Under the pieces are notes generated by a model. That model saw only the letters and a program-made list of their open reading frames with translations, did no database searches and had not been told where the DNA came from. Positions 18,528 through 22,542 of a DNA stretch of 34,007 bases are shown piece by piece. The stretch is taken from NCBI GenBank assembly GCA_949294665.1, contig CASFID010000011.1, positions 1 to 34,007 on the forward strand, read 5' to 3'. The translations under genes and the position numbers were made by a program. This DNA is from an uncultured Eubacteriales bacterium. GTDB taxonomy: Bacteria > Bacillota > Clostridia > Lachnospirales > Lachnospiraceae. Numbering within the stretch: position 1 is the first letter of the stretch; every line of letters starts with the position of its first letter.

Positions 18528-21500
18528 TTATTTTCCTTCCTTTTCCACACCCATTGTAACTGCTTCACCGTTGATCTTCCACTCCTTTACGTAGCCTGCC
18601 GGTTCTGCCTTCGCCACTTCATTGGCGAGCACTTCCCCGACAATCTCACCGGCATACTTTGCGAAGATCGTCTCTGCCTTGTCACTGCCGTCATAAGTTA
18701 CGCGGATACGGTCCATCACTTCAAAGTCTGCCTCTTTTCTCATGGTCTGTACTTTGCTGATGATCTCGCGGACAAATCCTTCTTCCAGAAGCTCCGGCGT
18801 CAGATTTGTATCGAGGACCACGGTAATTCCATTGTCATTCTCCGACACATACCCTTCGATCTGTGCCGTCTCAATGAGAAGATCCTCGCGGAACAAAGTG
18901 ATCTCCTGTCCGTTCACATCCAGTTTGAGAGCGCCAGTCTCATTTACTTCATCCATAGCTGCATTTCCGTCTACGCTGTCAAGCGCAGCTTTGATGCCAC
19001 CTAACATCTTACCATATTTCGGGCCCACTGTCTTTAACTGAGGTTTAAAATTGTATGAAGTAAATTCTCTTACATCTTCCGTAAATTTAACATTCTTCAC
19101 ATTTAACTCATCGGCTACGATATCCTGGTAAAACTCCGGCAGAGTAAACGCCGCTTTTACAAACATCTGCCCGATGGGCTGGCGGTTTTTAATATTCGAT
19201 GCATTTCTGCAGGCACGTCCCATAACGACAAGCTTCAGGACATTGTCCATGTTCTGCTCCAACTCTGCGTCGATCTGTTCTTCATTTACTTCCGGGAACA
19301 GGCACAGGTGGATACTCTCCGGCGCATCCTTGTCAATACTGCAGACAAGATTCTGATAGATCTCCTCTGTCATGAACGGGATCATCGGGGCAGCCGCCTT
19401 GGATACGGTCACAAGCGCTGTATACAGTGTCATGTATGCATTAATCTTATCCTGCTCCATGCCCTTTGCCCAGAAACGCTCACGGCTTCTTCTTACATAC
19501 CAGTTGCTCATGTCGTCCACAAACTCCTGCAGCGCACGTGCAGCCTCCGGAATGCGGTAATTCTCAAGATTGCTGTCAACGGCTTTCACCATCGTGTTCA
19601 TCTTGGACAGAAGCCATTTGTCCATTACGGTAAGTTTATCATATTCCAGTGTATATTTTGTCGCGTCAAAATTGTCAATATTCGCGTAGAGAACAAAGAA
19701 TGCATAGGTATTCCACAGAGTTCCCATGAATTTTCTCTGCCCTTCTGTCACGGCTTTCCCGTGGAAACGGTTCGGCAGCCACGGCGCGCTGTTGATGTAG
19801 AAGTACCAGCGGATCGCATCTGCTCCGTATGTCTCAAGAGCTTCAAACGGATCCACAGCATTCCCTTTGGACTTGCTCATCTTCTGTCCGTTCTCATCCT
19901 GAACGTGTCCGAGGACAATAACGTTCTTGTAAGGAGCCTTGTTGAAGATCAGCGTGGAGATCGCAAGCAGGGAGTAGAACCATCCCCTTGTCTGGTCCAC
20001 CGCCTCGGAAATAAAGTCTGCCGGGAACTGCTGCTCGAACAGCTCCTGATTCTCAAACGGATAATGATGCTGTGCAAACGGCATGGAACCACTGTCAAAC
20101 CAGCAGTCGATCACTTCCGGCACGCGGTGCATCTCTTTGCCGCACTTCGGACACTTGATGGTCACTGCGTCGATGTACGGGCGGTGCAGCTCAATGTCGT
20201 CCGGACAGTTATCGGACATTTCCTTCAGCTCTGCAATACTTCCGATGGAGTGCATATGTCCGCACTCACACTCCCAGATATTGAGCGGAGTACCCCAGTA
20301 ACGGTTACGGCTGATACCCCAGTCCTGAACATTCTCGATCCAGTCGCCGAAACGTCCTTTTCCGATGCTCTCCGGGATCCAGTTGATCGTGTTGTTGTTT
20401 GCGATCAGGTCATCGCGTACCGCTGTCATCTTGATGAACCATGACTCGCGCGCATAATAGATCAGCGGTGTGTCACATCTCCAGCAGTGCGGGTAGCTGT
20501 GCTCGAACTTCGGTGCGTCGAAGAGCAGTCCTCTGCCATCCAGATCTTTTAATACTTCCGGATCTGCTTTCTTTACAAACAGCCCTGCGAACGGAGTAGA
20601 CTCCGCCATGTTTCCTTTTTCATCTACGAGCTGTACGAACGGAAGATTATATTTTCTTCCCACATTCGCATCGTCTTCACCGAATGCCGGCGCGATGTGT
20701 ACGACTCCGGTACCATCCGTCAGGGTAACATATGTGTCACATGTCACATAGAATGCCTTCTTGTTCTGTTTTGCAGCAGCGTCTGCGGCACACTGGTAGA
20801 GCGGCTCATATTCTTTGCCCTCAAGATCTGTACCTTTGTATGTCTCAAGGATCTCATATGCCGGCTTTCCTTCCTCTGCCAGTCTTCCAAGAACTGTATC
20901 AAGAAGAGCGCACGCCATATAATAGGTGTATCCGTCTGCCGCCTTTACTTTCGCGTAATCCTCGCTCGGGTTTACGCAGAGTGCGAGGTTGGAAGGCAGT
21001 GTCCATGGTGTTGTCGTCCATGCAAGGATGTATGCATCCTCGTCCTTTACTTTAAATCTTACAACTGCGGAGCGCTCCTTCACGTCCTTGTAGCCCTGAG
21101 CCACTTCCTGCGCGGACAGCGGCGTACCGCAGCGCGGGCAGTAGGGAACGATCTTAAAACCCTTGTAGAGCAGGCCTTTGTCCCAGATCTGTTTCAGCGC
21201 CCACCACTCTGACTCGATAAATGTATTGTGGTATGTTACATAAGGATGCTCCATATCAGCCCAGAAACCGACGGTAGCAGAAAAATCCTCCCACATCCCT
21301 TTATATTTCCAGACGCTTTCCTTACATTTATCGATAAACGGCTCCAGACCGTATTCCTCGATCTGATCTTTCCCATCCAGTCCGAGAGCTTTCTCCACTT
21401 CCAGCTCTACCGGAAGTCCGTGGGTATCCCATCCGGCTTTTCTCGGAACCATATAGCCCTTCATCGTGCGGTATCTCGGGATCATATCCTTGATGACACG

Positions 21501-21683
21501 GGTGAGCACATGACCGATGTGCGGTTTTCCATTTGCAGTCGGCGGTCCGTCGTAGAAGATATATTCCGGACATCCCTCGCGTTCTTCGATACTCTTCTCG
21601 AAGATGTGGTTCTCGTCCCAGAACTTCTCGACTTCCTTCTCACGGCCGACAAAATTCATATCTGTGGGAACTTTCTTATACAT
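18528..21683 (-). CDS. ileS: Isoleucyl-tRNA synthetase
   Basis: 1051 aa. The class I signatures are present: PPTANGKPHIGH (HIGH at residues 55-58) and GQKMSKSKGN (KMSKS), separated by the large editing domain (WTTTPWTLPSN). The length and the PPTANGKPHIGH form resemble the second, eukaryote-like IleS type rather than the 920-aa type. It charges tRNA-Ile in the cytoplasm. AGAAAGGAAAA about 8 bases upstream supports ATG 21683 (MYKKVPTDMNF); a further 48 open codons upstream run into a palindromic repeat and are not protein-like. Expression should follow the T-box leader at 22208-22542. Confidence 0.95.
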   Translation of the reverse strand: MYKKVPTDMNFVGREKEVEKFWDENHIFEKSIEEREGCPEYIFYDGPPTANGKPHIGHVLTRVIKDMIPRYRTMKGYMVPRKAGWDTHGLPVELEVEKALGLDGKDQIEEYGLEPFIDKCKESVWKYKGMWEDFSATVGFWADMEHPYVTYHNTFIESEWWALKQIWDKGLLYKGFKIVPYCPRCGTPLSAQEVAQGYKDVKERSAVVRFKVKDEDAYILAWTTTPWTLPSNLALCVNPSEDYAKVKAADGYTYYMACALLDTVLGRLAEEGKPAYEILETYKGTDLEGKEYEPLYQCAADAAAKQNKKAFYVTCDTYVTLTDGTGVVHIAPAFGEDDANVGRKYNLPFVQLVDEKGNMAESTPFAGLFVKKADPEVLKDLDGRGLLFDAPKFEHSYPHCWRCDTPLIYYARESWFIKMTAVRDDLIANNNTINWIPESIGKGRFGDWIENVQDWGISRNRYWGTPLNIWECECGHMHSIGSIAELKEMSDNCPDDIELHRPYIDAVTIKCPKCGKEMHRVPEVIDCWFDSGSMPFAQHHYPFENQELFEQQFPADFISEAVDQTRGWFYSLLAISTLIFNKAPYKNVIVLGHVQDENGQKMSKSKGNAVDPFEALETYGADAIRWYFYINSAPWLPNRFHGKAVTEGQRKFMGTLWNTYAFFVLYANIDNFDATKYTLEYDKLTVMDKWLLSKMNTMVKAVDSNLENYRIPEAARALQEFVDDMSNWYVRRSRERFWAKGMEQDKINAYMTLYTALVTVSKAAAPMIPFMTEEIYQNLVCSIDKDAPESIHLCLFPEVNEEQIDAELEQNMDNVLKLVVMGRACRNASNIKNRQPIGQMFVKAAFTLPEFYQDIVADELNVKNVKFTEDVREFTSYNFKPQLKTVGPKYGKMLGGIKAALDSVDGNAAMDEVNETGALKLDVNGQEITLFREDLLIETAQIEGYVSENDNGITVVLDTNLTPELLEEGFVREIISKVQTMRKEADFEVMDRIRVTYDGSDKAETIFAKYAGEIVGEVLANEVAKAEPAGYVKEWKINGEAVTMGVEKEGK

Positions 21684-21712
21684 ACTGATTTTCCTTTCTG
21701 TCTCTGGTCCGC

Positions 21713-21836
21713 CGCAGCTATGTATCGATTGCGGACGCGCTCTCGCTCGGGACGGAACGCAGCGGCACATAAGGCTGCAAAAAAACAGCCTAAGTGCCGG
21801 CGTTCCTTTACGGTCCTTAATCGACACATAGCTGCG
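21713..21836. repeat. Palindromic element copy A in the ileS leader
   Basis: The core 21729-21820 opens with TTGCGGACGCGC and ends with GGTCCTTAA. Flanking arms GCAGCTATGTATCGA and TCGACACATAGCTGC pair at 14 of 15 positions. Inside, GGAACGC/GCGTTCC, CGGCAC/GTGCCG and GGCTG/CAGCC form a long hairpin with a poly-A loop. The core matches copy B (22039-22173) in inverted orientation, while the arms and tip differ and still pair. Confidence 0.8.
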
Positions 21837-22038
21837 CCAGACCTGTCCAGAACGGAACCTGAATCAAAACCGGGAGAGATGAGGACTTTCTGCCTTTTAT
21901 CGGTGCTTTATCCTTCCTGAAAGCATATTGCTAAAAGCATATGTGTTTTTAGCGGAGCCGAAGCACCTGCCGGTCTGAACCGGATTCCCGGGAGTCCTTT
22001 TTATCTGCCGGATCAGGGAACGCTCCGGTTTGCGTGAA

Positions 22039-22173
22039 CCTGAATGAACAATGTATCTGTTAAGGACCGTAGAGTAACGCCGGCACTTAGACCGCGTCTT
22101 TTGCGGTCTTATGTGTCCGCTGCGTTACGGCCCGAGCGAAAGCGCGTCCGCAACAGATGCATTGTTCATTCAG
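22039..22173. repeat. Palindromic element copy B in the ileS leader
   Basis: The core 22060-22152, read on the minus strand, repeats copy A: TTGCGGACGCGC, then CGTAACGCAGCGG, TAAGTGCCGGCGTT and GGTCCTTAA. The flanking arms (22039-22059 and 22153-22173) pair at 20 of 21 positions but differ from those of copy A. The tip stem reads GACCGC/GCGGTC instead of GGCTG/CAGCC. Between the copies (21837-22038) no gene is seen, only a small GCTAAAA/TTTTAGC hairpin (21930-21953). Confidence 0.8.
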
Positions 22174-22207
22174 GCTCTGTAAAACATTCGCATTTCTGAT
22201 GTGGCAG

Positions 22208-22542
22208 AAAAAAAGGCTCCCGTCCTGCAAAAGGACGAAAGCCATCTCTCTCGTTTTAACCACCTGTTACAACATACTTGAACTTCCTTCACCCGTATAC
22301 ACACTGTCTGATTCTGTGGTAAAAGCAATTCAGTTCGCATATGGTATCCTCTAACGCGGGATCCGCGTCAGCCCTTACTCTCTCATGCTGTCTGTATCTT
22401 CCGTAGACTTTGGGGGCTGCGGTTCGGGAGTGATCTTCGGAACTATTCTACTGATACCGGGCTCGCACCGTTCCCGGCTCGCTGGGATGTTCGAATAAAA
22501 CCTACTGTCTCCGTCATAACCTTTGCTGTTGAAATTCATTCA
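22208..22542 (-). promoter_or_regulatory. T-box riboswitch leader of ileS (isoleucine)
   Basis: Reading the minus strand from about 22542, the stem I features appear in order: the loop-E AGTA (rc of 22503-22506), the distal CCCAGCGAGCCGGGA and GGTGCGAGCCCGG, then GAA and the specifier ATC (rc of 22432-22434) followed by A. The T-box sequence AACAGGTGGTT (rc of 22258-22268) carries UGGU to pair with the ACCA end of tRNA-Ile. A terminator GGCTTTCGTCC/GGACGGGAGCC (22215-22243) ends in seven U (22208-22214). Uncharged tRNA-Ile should stabilise the antiterminator and switch on ileS-glgP. Confidence 0.88.

Follow-up and report, generated by a model that had tools for sequence, protein, structure and literature searches.

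A pair of inverted palindromic elements in the ileS leader belongs to a dispersed, structured repeat family of Lachnospiraceae that is possibly mobile as RNA

Two palindromic elements, A and B, lie in opposite orientation upstream of ileS in the window (the whole stretch of 34,007 nucleotides analyzed here), and the question is whether they serve ileS or only reside beside it. The original prediction had put both downstream of the T-box terminator and ahead of the start of ileS, had noted differences between the copies that preserve pairing in the outer arms and hairpin tips, and had implied a function as part of the ileS mRNA. The placement was correct, the inverted pair is real, although its extents proved slightly wider than first given, and the paired differences are present in the sequence. 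We put the probability at roughly 50% that A and B are resident copies of a non-autonomous mobile element, similar to REPINs and ERICs, that folds as RNA; the RNA-level reading itself has about even odds. The features of the locus are as follows, R1 being a covariance model of the element that is described below.

18528..21683, minus strand: ileS, 1051 codons plus stop, counted from the ATG at 21683-21681.
21706..21841, minus strand: copy A, model match (R1, 139 bits); the core-sense strand is the ileS sense strand.
21706-21736 and 21813-21843: arms of copy A, 84% complementary; pairing spans 21706 to 21843.
21729..21819, minus strand: conserved core of copy A, 86% identical to the core of B by blastn.
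21741..21744, minus strand: GNRA loop of copy A (GAGA), read from the sequence, with its position from the model.
21844..22035, strand not applicable: spacer of the outward inverted pair A/B.
22036-22067 and 22146-22177: arms of copy B, 88% complementary; pairing spans 22036 to 22177.
22039..22176, plus strand: copy B, model match (R1, 148.6 bits); the core-sense strand is opposite to the ileS mRNA.
22061..22154, plus strand: conserved core of copy B, which served as the blastn query.
22138..22141, plus strand: GNRA loop of copy B (GAAA), read from the sequence, with its position from the model.
22206..22251, minus strand: T-box terminator-like hairpin and T run, read from the sequence, with a sub-threshold Rfam hairpin match on the same stretch.
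22228..22526, minus strand: T-box leader of ileS, upstream of B, recognizable but sub-threshold in Rfam (RF00230, 58.9 bits, E = 4.9e-12, gathering score 93).

Reading from the T-box terminator, one comes to B, whose 3' side points at the terminator, then to the spacer, to A, and to the next gene, which we take to be ileS after the name given in the original prediction; the model end of A is 22 nt from its ATG. Minimum free energies of the core-sense strands were -89.4 (A) and -78.4 kcal/mol (B), with z scores of -10.3 and -10.0 and none of 200 shuffles as good, and those of the other strands were -76.1 and -77.1 kcal/mol, respectively. Folding energy by itself thus prefers one strand for A and neither for B. 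Long-range pairing between A and B was discarded, because the minimum-energy fold of the leader consists of two separate hairpins.

We compared the ileS leaders of relatives, in which the N terminus of ileS is 94 to 99% identical. An ileS match was present in 53 genomes, and leaders were taken from 52 of them (G011 is split and was left out); 21 carried A and B, 7 A only, 2 B only, and 22 no model match, where a weak partial B (31.8 bits, L170) was counted and a weak partial sense match (27.1 bits, L174) was not, so that L174 stands as B only. Among the 22 match-free leaders, one lies at a contig end and another (L032) keeps half of A; 21 of them show a T-box motif by a short string match, 85 to 265 nt from the ATG. 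The site is occupied in some genomes and without a match in others, as would fit a mobile element. The model end of A lay 19 to 22 nt from the ATG in 25 of the 28 leaders with A and 89 to 160 nt in the other 3. In the leader of one relative (G007; L130/L022), two further copies of the 3' half of copy A were seen by eye, in tandem, in the stretch from A to the start of ileS.

These leaders bear on the reading that A and B together serve as a cis-regulatory element in the ileS leader and affect attenuation, stability, or translation in the mRNA. The retention of both copies in 21 leaders and of A alone in 7, the narrow distance of A from the ATG in most of them, and long-term paired change in place (see below) are what such a role would leave behind, whereas the 22 leaders without a match, 21 with a T-box motif, the arms of B, which keep their fold on the strand opposite to the mRNA, and the presence of the same element and of outward pairs at other loci all argue against it, and we regard it as very unlikely. 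On the same grounds, the function within the ileS mRNA that the original prediction implied found no support, and a link of the element to ileS function is not supported; any effect of A on ileS translation, at 22 nt before the ATG, would be secondary and is putative.

Copies were found at many loci besides ileS. Of 61 genomes searched by blastn with the core of B, 26 had copies, and each of these belongs to the window's genus; none of the 24 genomes of other families had one (14 best candidates scored). The covariance model R1 was built from 41 congeneric copies (alignment A1), from which blast matches that spanned fewer than about 70 query bases, lay near locus ends, or were duplicates had been left out. 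R1 matched 44 of 58 congeneric genomes (57 best candidates scored), with up to 48 matches per genome, a number that differs from an exact copy count because a palindromic copy may match both strands (the window's genome has five matches and four copies). Besides, R1 matched 110 of 299 Lachnospiraceae genomes, one being drawn per genus (11 best candidates scored). A wider model, R2, matched 30 of 295 genomes of the order, all 30 within the window's family (11 best candidates scored), and 5 of 398 genomes of the phylum (8 best candidates scored), where a genome of another class (G984) has four matches. Two loci of the latter that we read (L357 and L362) keep the core and the GNRA loop, and reflect either transfer or old ancestry. 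The covariance-model search that the original prediction had proposed was thus strongly positive, and the core belongs to a dispersed multicopy family, widespread in Lachnospiraceae. The four copies in the window's genome are A, B, one in the fabG-fabF spacer, and one in the spacer between a sigma-factor-like gene and pckA; these gene names, as well as ABC-F and RAYT-like below, are assumed from the translations.

A scan of named records with the core pattern gave at least 80 loci. Among the 80 matches listed, 36 are titled Lachnospiraceae; 20 are titled Mediterraneibacter, Ruminococcus turbiniformis, Blautia, Acetatifactor, Roseburia, or Lachnoclostridium, which we take to be members of the same family; and 15 are titled Clostridiales, Clostridium, Eubacterium, or Bacillota. 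The other 9 among those listed are titled Gastranaerophilales, Muribaculum, or Muribaculaceae and all come from the NALB series of metagenome-assembled genomes (L186, L202, L204, L227, L232, L251, L256, L257, and L261); these titles look doubtful, and they may be wrong or the bins mixed. A phage or plasmid origin was set aside, since B matched nothing in phage or plasmid collections and the core pattern matched nothing in viral_contigs.

Rfam 15 gave no family at or above the gathering threshold on the element copies in the window, in a set of 20 loci, and in a set of 13 loci, in agreement with the earlier statement that no named family with such a core is known. No paper that we saw names the family either; an excerpt of PMC8040213 reports 250 palindromic candidate RNAs, with which an overlap is possible as far as that excerpt goes. 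Two other RNAs were seen next to element copies, namely, a TwoAYGGAY RNA (99.6 bits) at L045:1090-1256 and a sub-threshold Clostridiales-1 RNA at L041:1151-1293. Besides, one genome (G170; L077, L079, L080, and L081) holds tandem arrays of two to four element copies at a spacing of about 142 to 187 bp.

Fixed sites other than ileS also vary in occupancy. The fabG-fabF spacer had a model match at 14 of 30 loci, and at the other loci, read by eye, the spacer is short or holds a remnant that lacks an arm; some copies there have lost arms or core, which indicates that not every copy is maintained, and loss by deletion is common at this site. In five of these spacers (L136, L144, L145, L149, and L165), from several species, another sequence, shared among them and opening with TGATTTAAGTGAGACC, starts at the stop codon of fabG. 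Behind an ABC-F gene, the element was found by eye at 3 of 30 loci (L339, L342, and L346), and several other ABC-F loci have a different sequence starting at the stop codon; in about 10 of the 30 (L317 to L346), AATTCGTGTTTG or a close form of it, or another repeat, stands directly behind that codon. This looks, by eye, as though insertions were generally accepted behind stop codons. Beside the element, at L097:2252-2638 and L102:2428-2696 (G020) and also at L329, lies another repeat that looks structured; its arms are long and variable, its frame of GGCGACTTTGGAAG and CTGTAACCGGAGCCGG is conserved, and it had no Rfam match. At L101 and L102, the element and this second repeat are parts of one 686-bp repeat.

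The element has a defined architecture. In core-sense order (the plus strand of B), it consists of a P1 stem of at least 20 pairs, a short inner stem, an asymmetric junction, a conserved stem, a variable tip stem, and a side hairpin, in a unit of about 140 to 280 bp. The side hairpin has two pairs and a GNRA loop in all 41 congeneric copies, 5 of which show a G-C to A-U compensation. In a wider set (96 copies, minus 7 too short and 5 without a hairpin, leaving 84), the loop was GNRA in 79 of the 84 located cases by a search that favors GNRA and in 66 of 73 under a stricter first-match rule, and the stems were GC/GC in 67, GT/AC in 12, AC/GT in 4, and GT/GC in 1. Double-sided changes were present at 35 of 51 pairs in A1 and at 47 of 51 in alignment A2 (96 copies). 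The covariation score of A2 was 0.730 against 0.183 for shuffled alignments and at most 0.105 for slid structures, where fitting to the model biases A2 towards the structure and relatedness among sequences can by itself raise a score above that of shuffles; the slid-structure control is the stronger of the two. One core pair is C.A in 10 of the 41 congeneric copies. Covariation thus exceeds both controls, and the proposal of a selected structure rather than a decayed repeat, judged here by a covariation count and not by R-scape, is correct and stronger than first put.

The arms require separate treatment. They differ widely between loci and species with pairing retained, and recent copies within one genome mostly share them (G028, G170, G166, G226, and G020), so that the arms are part of the dispersing unit; in G226 the repeat extends even past the arms. 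Insertion into ready-made palindromes can be dismissed, because the arms move with recent copies. We counted changes on a tree of the ileS coding sequence by one parsimony assignment, which does not distinguish stepwise compensation from tract-wise copying: double-sided changes with pairing kept, single changes with pairing kept, single changes with pairing broken, and double changes with pairing broken numbered 96, 31, 10, and 4 in P1 of A; 84, 22, 4, and 1 in P1 of B; 48, 15, 17, and 1 in the core of A; and 26, 6, 7, and 0 in the core of B. Single changes in the core of A broke a pair slightly more often than they kept it.

Near-perfect palindromes are prone to template switching, and the paired changes might have arisen by such copying of arm onto arm, with no selection for the fold. 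The excess of double-sided over single changes is as expected from this process, but the asymmetric internal loops, the GNRA loop, and the junction persist across genera, and the intermediates in the arms are G·U and not A·C, which template switching does not predict; we hold it to be a long shot.

A G·U pair on one strand corresponds to A·C on the other, and the ratio of the two therefore reports which strand is folded. In P1, the core-sense ratio of G·U to A·C was 37:5 for A, 29:2 for B, and 124:36 in the wider set of 96 copies, the cells being non-independent because they come from related species. The excess of G·U on the core-sense strand in both A and B indicates that what is retained in the arms is the fold of the element itself. 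A locus-wide mutation bias between strands cannot explain both, since A and B are inverted at one locus and such a bias would act on them in opposite ways. In the core, the ratio was 133:35, but 81 of these G·U cases belong to a single near-invariant pair, and the strand signal is less clear there than in the arms. As read from these sequences, the G·U excess in the arms and the GNRA loops point to RNA, and less probably to single-stranded DNA. Promoter-like sites numbered 22 to 26 against 16 to 19 in shuffled sequences on all four sides and strands (74 of 96 copies). A dedicated promoter or terminator was rejected, the promoter signal being specific to no side and a T-run peak being absent at the element ends. 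Because no clear promoter or terminator signal surrounds the copies, the RNA form is one that we infer.

It is conceivable, though somewhat unlikely, that the folded form is single-stranded DNA, recognized by a transposase or recombinase in the manner of attC sites or IS200/IS605 ends, with no involvement of RNA. An element that is mobile and palindromic, with a strand preference in its arms, would fit this account, and its fixed side towards gene 3' ends (see below) recalls attC. A GNRA loop with a variable second base and the tolerance of G·U suit RNA better, although GNNA-type DNA hairpins are also stable; replication would expose A and B unequally, as they lie on opposite strands of one locus, yet both keep the core-sense fold; and no linked Y1 gene was found in 58 genomes and at 20 RAYT-like loci.

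The element also has a polarity towards its neighbors. In 79 rows, which count two copies twice (L052 is L075, and L055 is the plus copy of L105) and thus represent 77 distinct copies, the core-downstream neighbor was convergent in 55 and co-oriented in 24, and the core-upstream neighbor was co-oriented in 41, opposed in 35, and without assignment in 3; neighbor open reading frames were called mechanically, and one stop codon was missed (L102). In a second set of 96 copies, 45 gene 3' ends face the 3' side of the element, 30 of them within 60 nt (median, 39), and 39 face its 5' side, 7 of them within 60 nt (median, 209). This asymmetry (30/45 against 7/39) has a Fisher p of 8e-6 with copies treated as independent, where genomes contribute several copies each and the two sets overlap at least once (L041 and L190 are apparently one contig). 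For gene 5' ends, the 5' side of the element has 7 of 42 within 60 nt and the 3' side has 10 of 40. In one genome (G020), each of the nine copies read by eye starts right after a stop codon (TAA, TGA, or TAG), and the mechanical reading frames agree in eight of the nine. A replication-strand bias behind the polarity is disfavored, the core-upstream neighbor having no strand bias.

Close pairs have a preferred arrangement as well. Among the 11 close pairs listed from named loci, 9 are outward inverted, 2 are direct, and none is inward; the gaps of the 9 outward pairs are 52 to 207 nt, with one of 943. A gene end adjoins several of the outward pairs, not all, and an ileS probe matched none of the 11 loci. 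The ileS pair fits this outward arrangement, and copy A violates the gene-end rule, its 3' side facing the ileS start.

A search for a mobilizing enzyme among the 58 congeneric genomes found none. The Y1 transposase domain (PF01797) is present in 49 but had no match in G370 (28 model matches) and G372 (14 model matches), where a Y1 gene has possibly been lost or has diverged; the reverse transcriptase domain RVT_1 (PF00078) is present in 28 but had no match in four draft genomes (G002, G359, G372, and G378) with 11 to 32 model matches. G372 thus lacks a match to either. Around 20 RAYT-like loci, which are weak Y1 matches of about 255 to 310 amino acids (7 of the 20 translated), no element was found at an E value of 1 or less (about 3 kb in either direction, as far as the contig reached; 119,641 bases). 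A RAYT was accordingly rejected as mobilizer, since PF01797 is missing in two well-covered, copy-rich genomes and none of the 20 RAYT-like loci holds a copy, and a reverse transcriptase was rejected because PF00078 is missing in several copy-rich genomes. One RAYT-like gene, of about 260 amino acids (L379; G000:C48:137173-137502), is present in the window's genome without an element copy nearby, and it is similar to those of two relatives that were translated. Inspection of the flanks by eye established no target-site duplication, and the ends of the unit pair within a genome and differ between genomes.

Taken as a resident copy of a mobile element that folds as RNA, each palindrome would have the following history. 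The core-sense strand folds into one long hairpin, in our view as RNA. A variable P1 is followed by a three-way junction, where the side hairpin with its GNRA cap branches off, and then by the conserved stem and the tip, which varies. This folded strand might be what a mobilizing enzyme recognizes during spread. Insertion would be directed to transcript 3' ends, with the 3' side of the element facing them. An outward pair may have settled at ileS, past the T-box terminator but ahead of the Shine-Dalgarno site, and may have been retained with its fold in part of the genus. A further proposal, which we consider quite unlikely, is that the family represents, in Lachnospiraceae, a new class of mobile element based on structured RNA, whose RNA is inserted with its 3' end against a gene 3' end, behind the stop codon, and whose copies evolve their own arms with the fold kept. 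If this were true, this geometry would be expected either from priming of RNA copying by a 3' end on the coding strand or from a coupling of insertion to the termination of transcription or translation. Indeed, with the core-sense RNA as the mobile form, the side observed, that is, the RNA 3' end against the coding-strand end, would be the side of target-primed copying, which is a geometric remark only.

Whatever its mode of spread, the element makes up a considerable share of common gut genomes that has had no name, with matches in 110 of 299 sampled genera and up to tens of matches per genome. It combines, unusually, arms that are private to a locus and yet paired, a fold preferred on one strand regardless of the direction of the host gene, and a preferred side towards gene ends, and it lends itself to tests of how bacterial repeats that carry a structure spread and arrive behind stop codons.

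Among known systems, integron attC sites follow stop codons, keep structure while sequence varies, and have one strand folded. The element resembles them in its position behind stop codons, in structure prevailing over sequence, and in its one folded strand, in a comparison of anatomy only; it differs in being conserved in the middle, whereas attC sites are conserved at the ends. REPs and BIMEs often occur in inverted pairs, and ERICs are palindromic. The element shares with REPIN/RAYT systems that it is an intergenic palindromic repeat near gene ends, often in inverted pairs; the flanking of a RAYT gene and the constant company of a Y1 transposase, both features of REPINs, were not seen at the 20 loci and in G370 and G372, respectively. 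REPs measure 20 to 40 bp, and GTAG REPs often provide the flanking open reading frame with its stop codon (PMC3733652); the element, in comparison, measures 140 to 280 bp, is branched, and has a GNRA loop and arms specific to each locus. The ERIC/RU elements, like other MITEs of bacteria, are small mobile intergenic repeats of 100 to 200 bp (PMC2759123), and the element is similar to that extent, but its arm sequence turns over with pairing kept, its fold prefers one strand, and no target duplication was established. STAXI, in the excerpt of PMC2864571, is likewise a repeated structured motif for which RNA and single-stranded DNA were argued from the type of tetraloop; it is built of pseudoknots, and its structure is unrelated. 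The Clostridiales-1 RNA (RF01699), a gut motif of Clostridiales in the same excerpt, gave only sub-threshold matches at 2 of 20 loci (adjacent to one copy and overlapping a second; scores of 40.9 and 24, the gathering score being 48) and none at an E value of 1 or less at the other 18. We class the element with the dispersed palindromic mobile elements, as an addition to those known.
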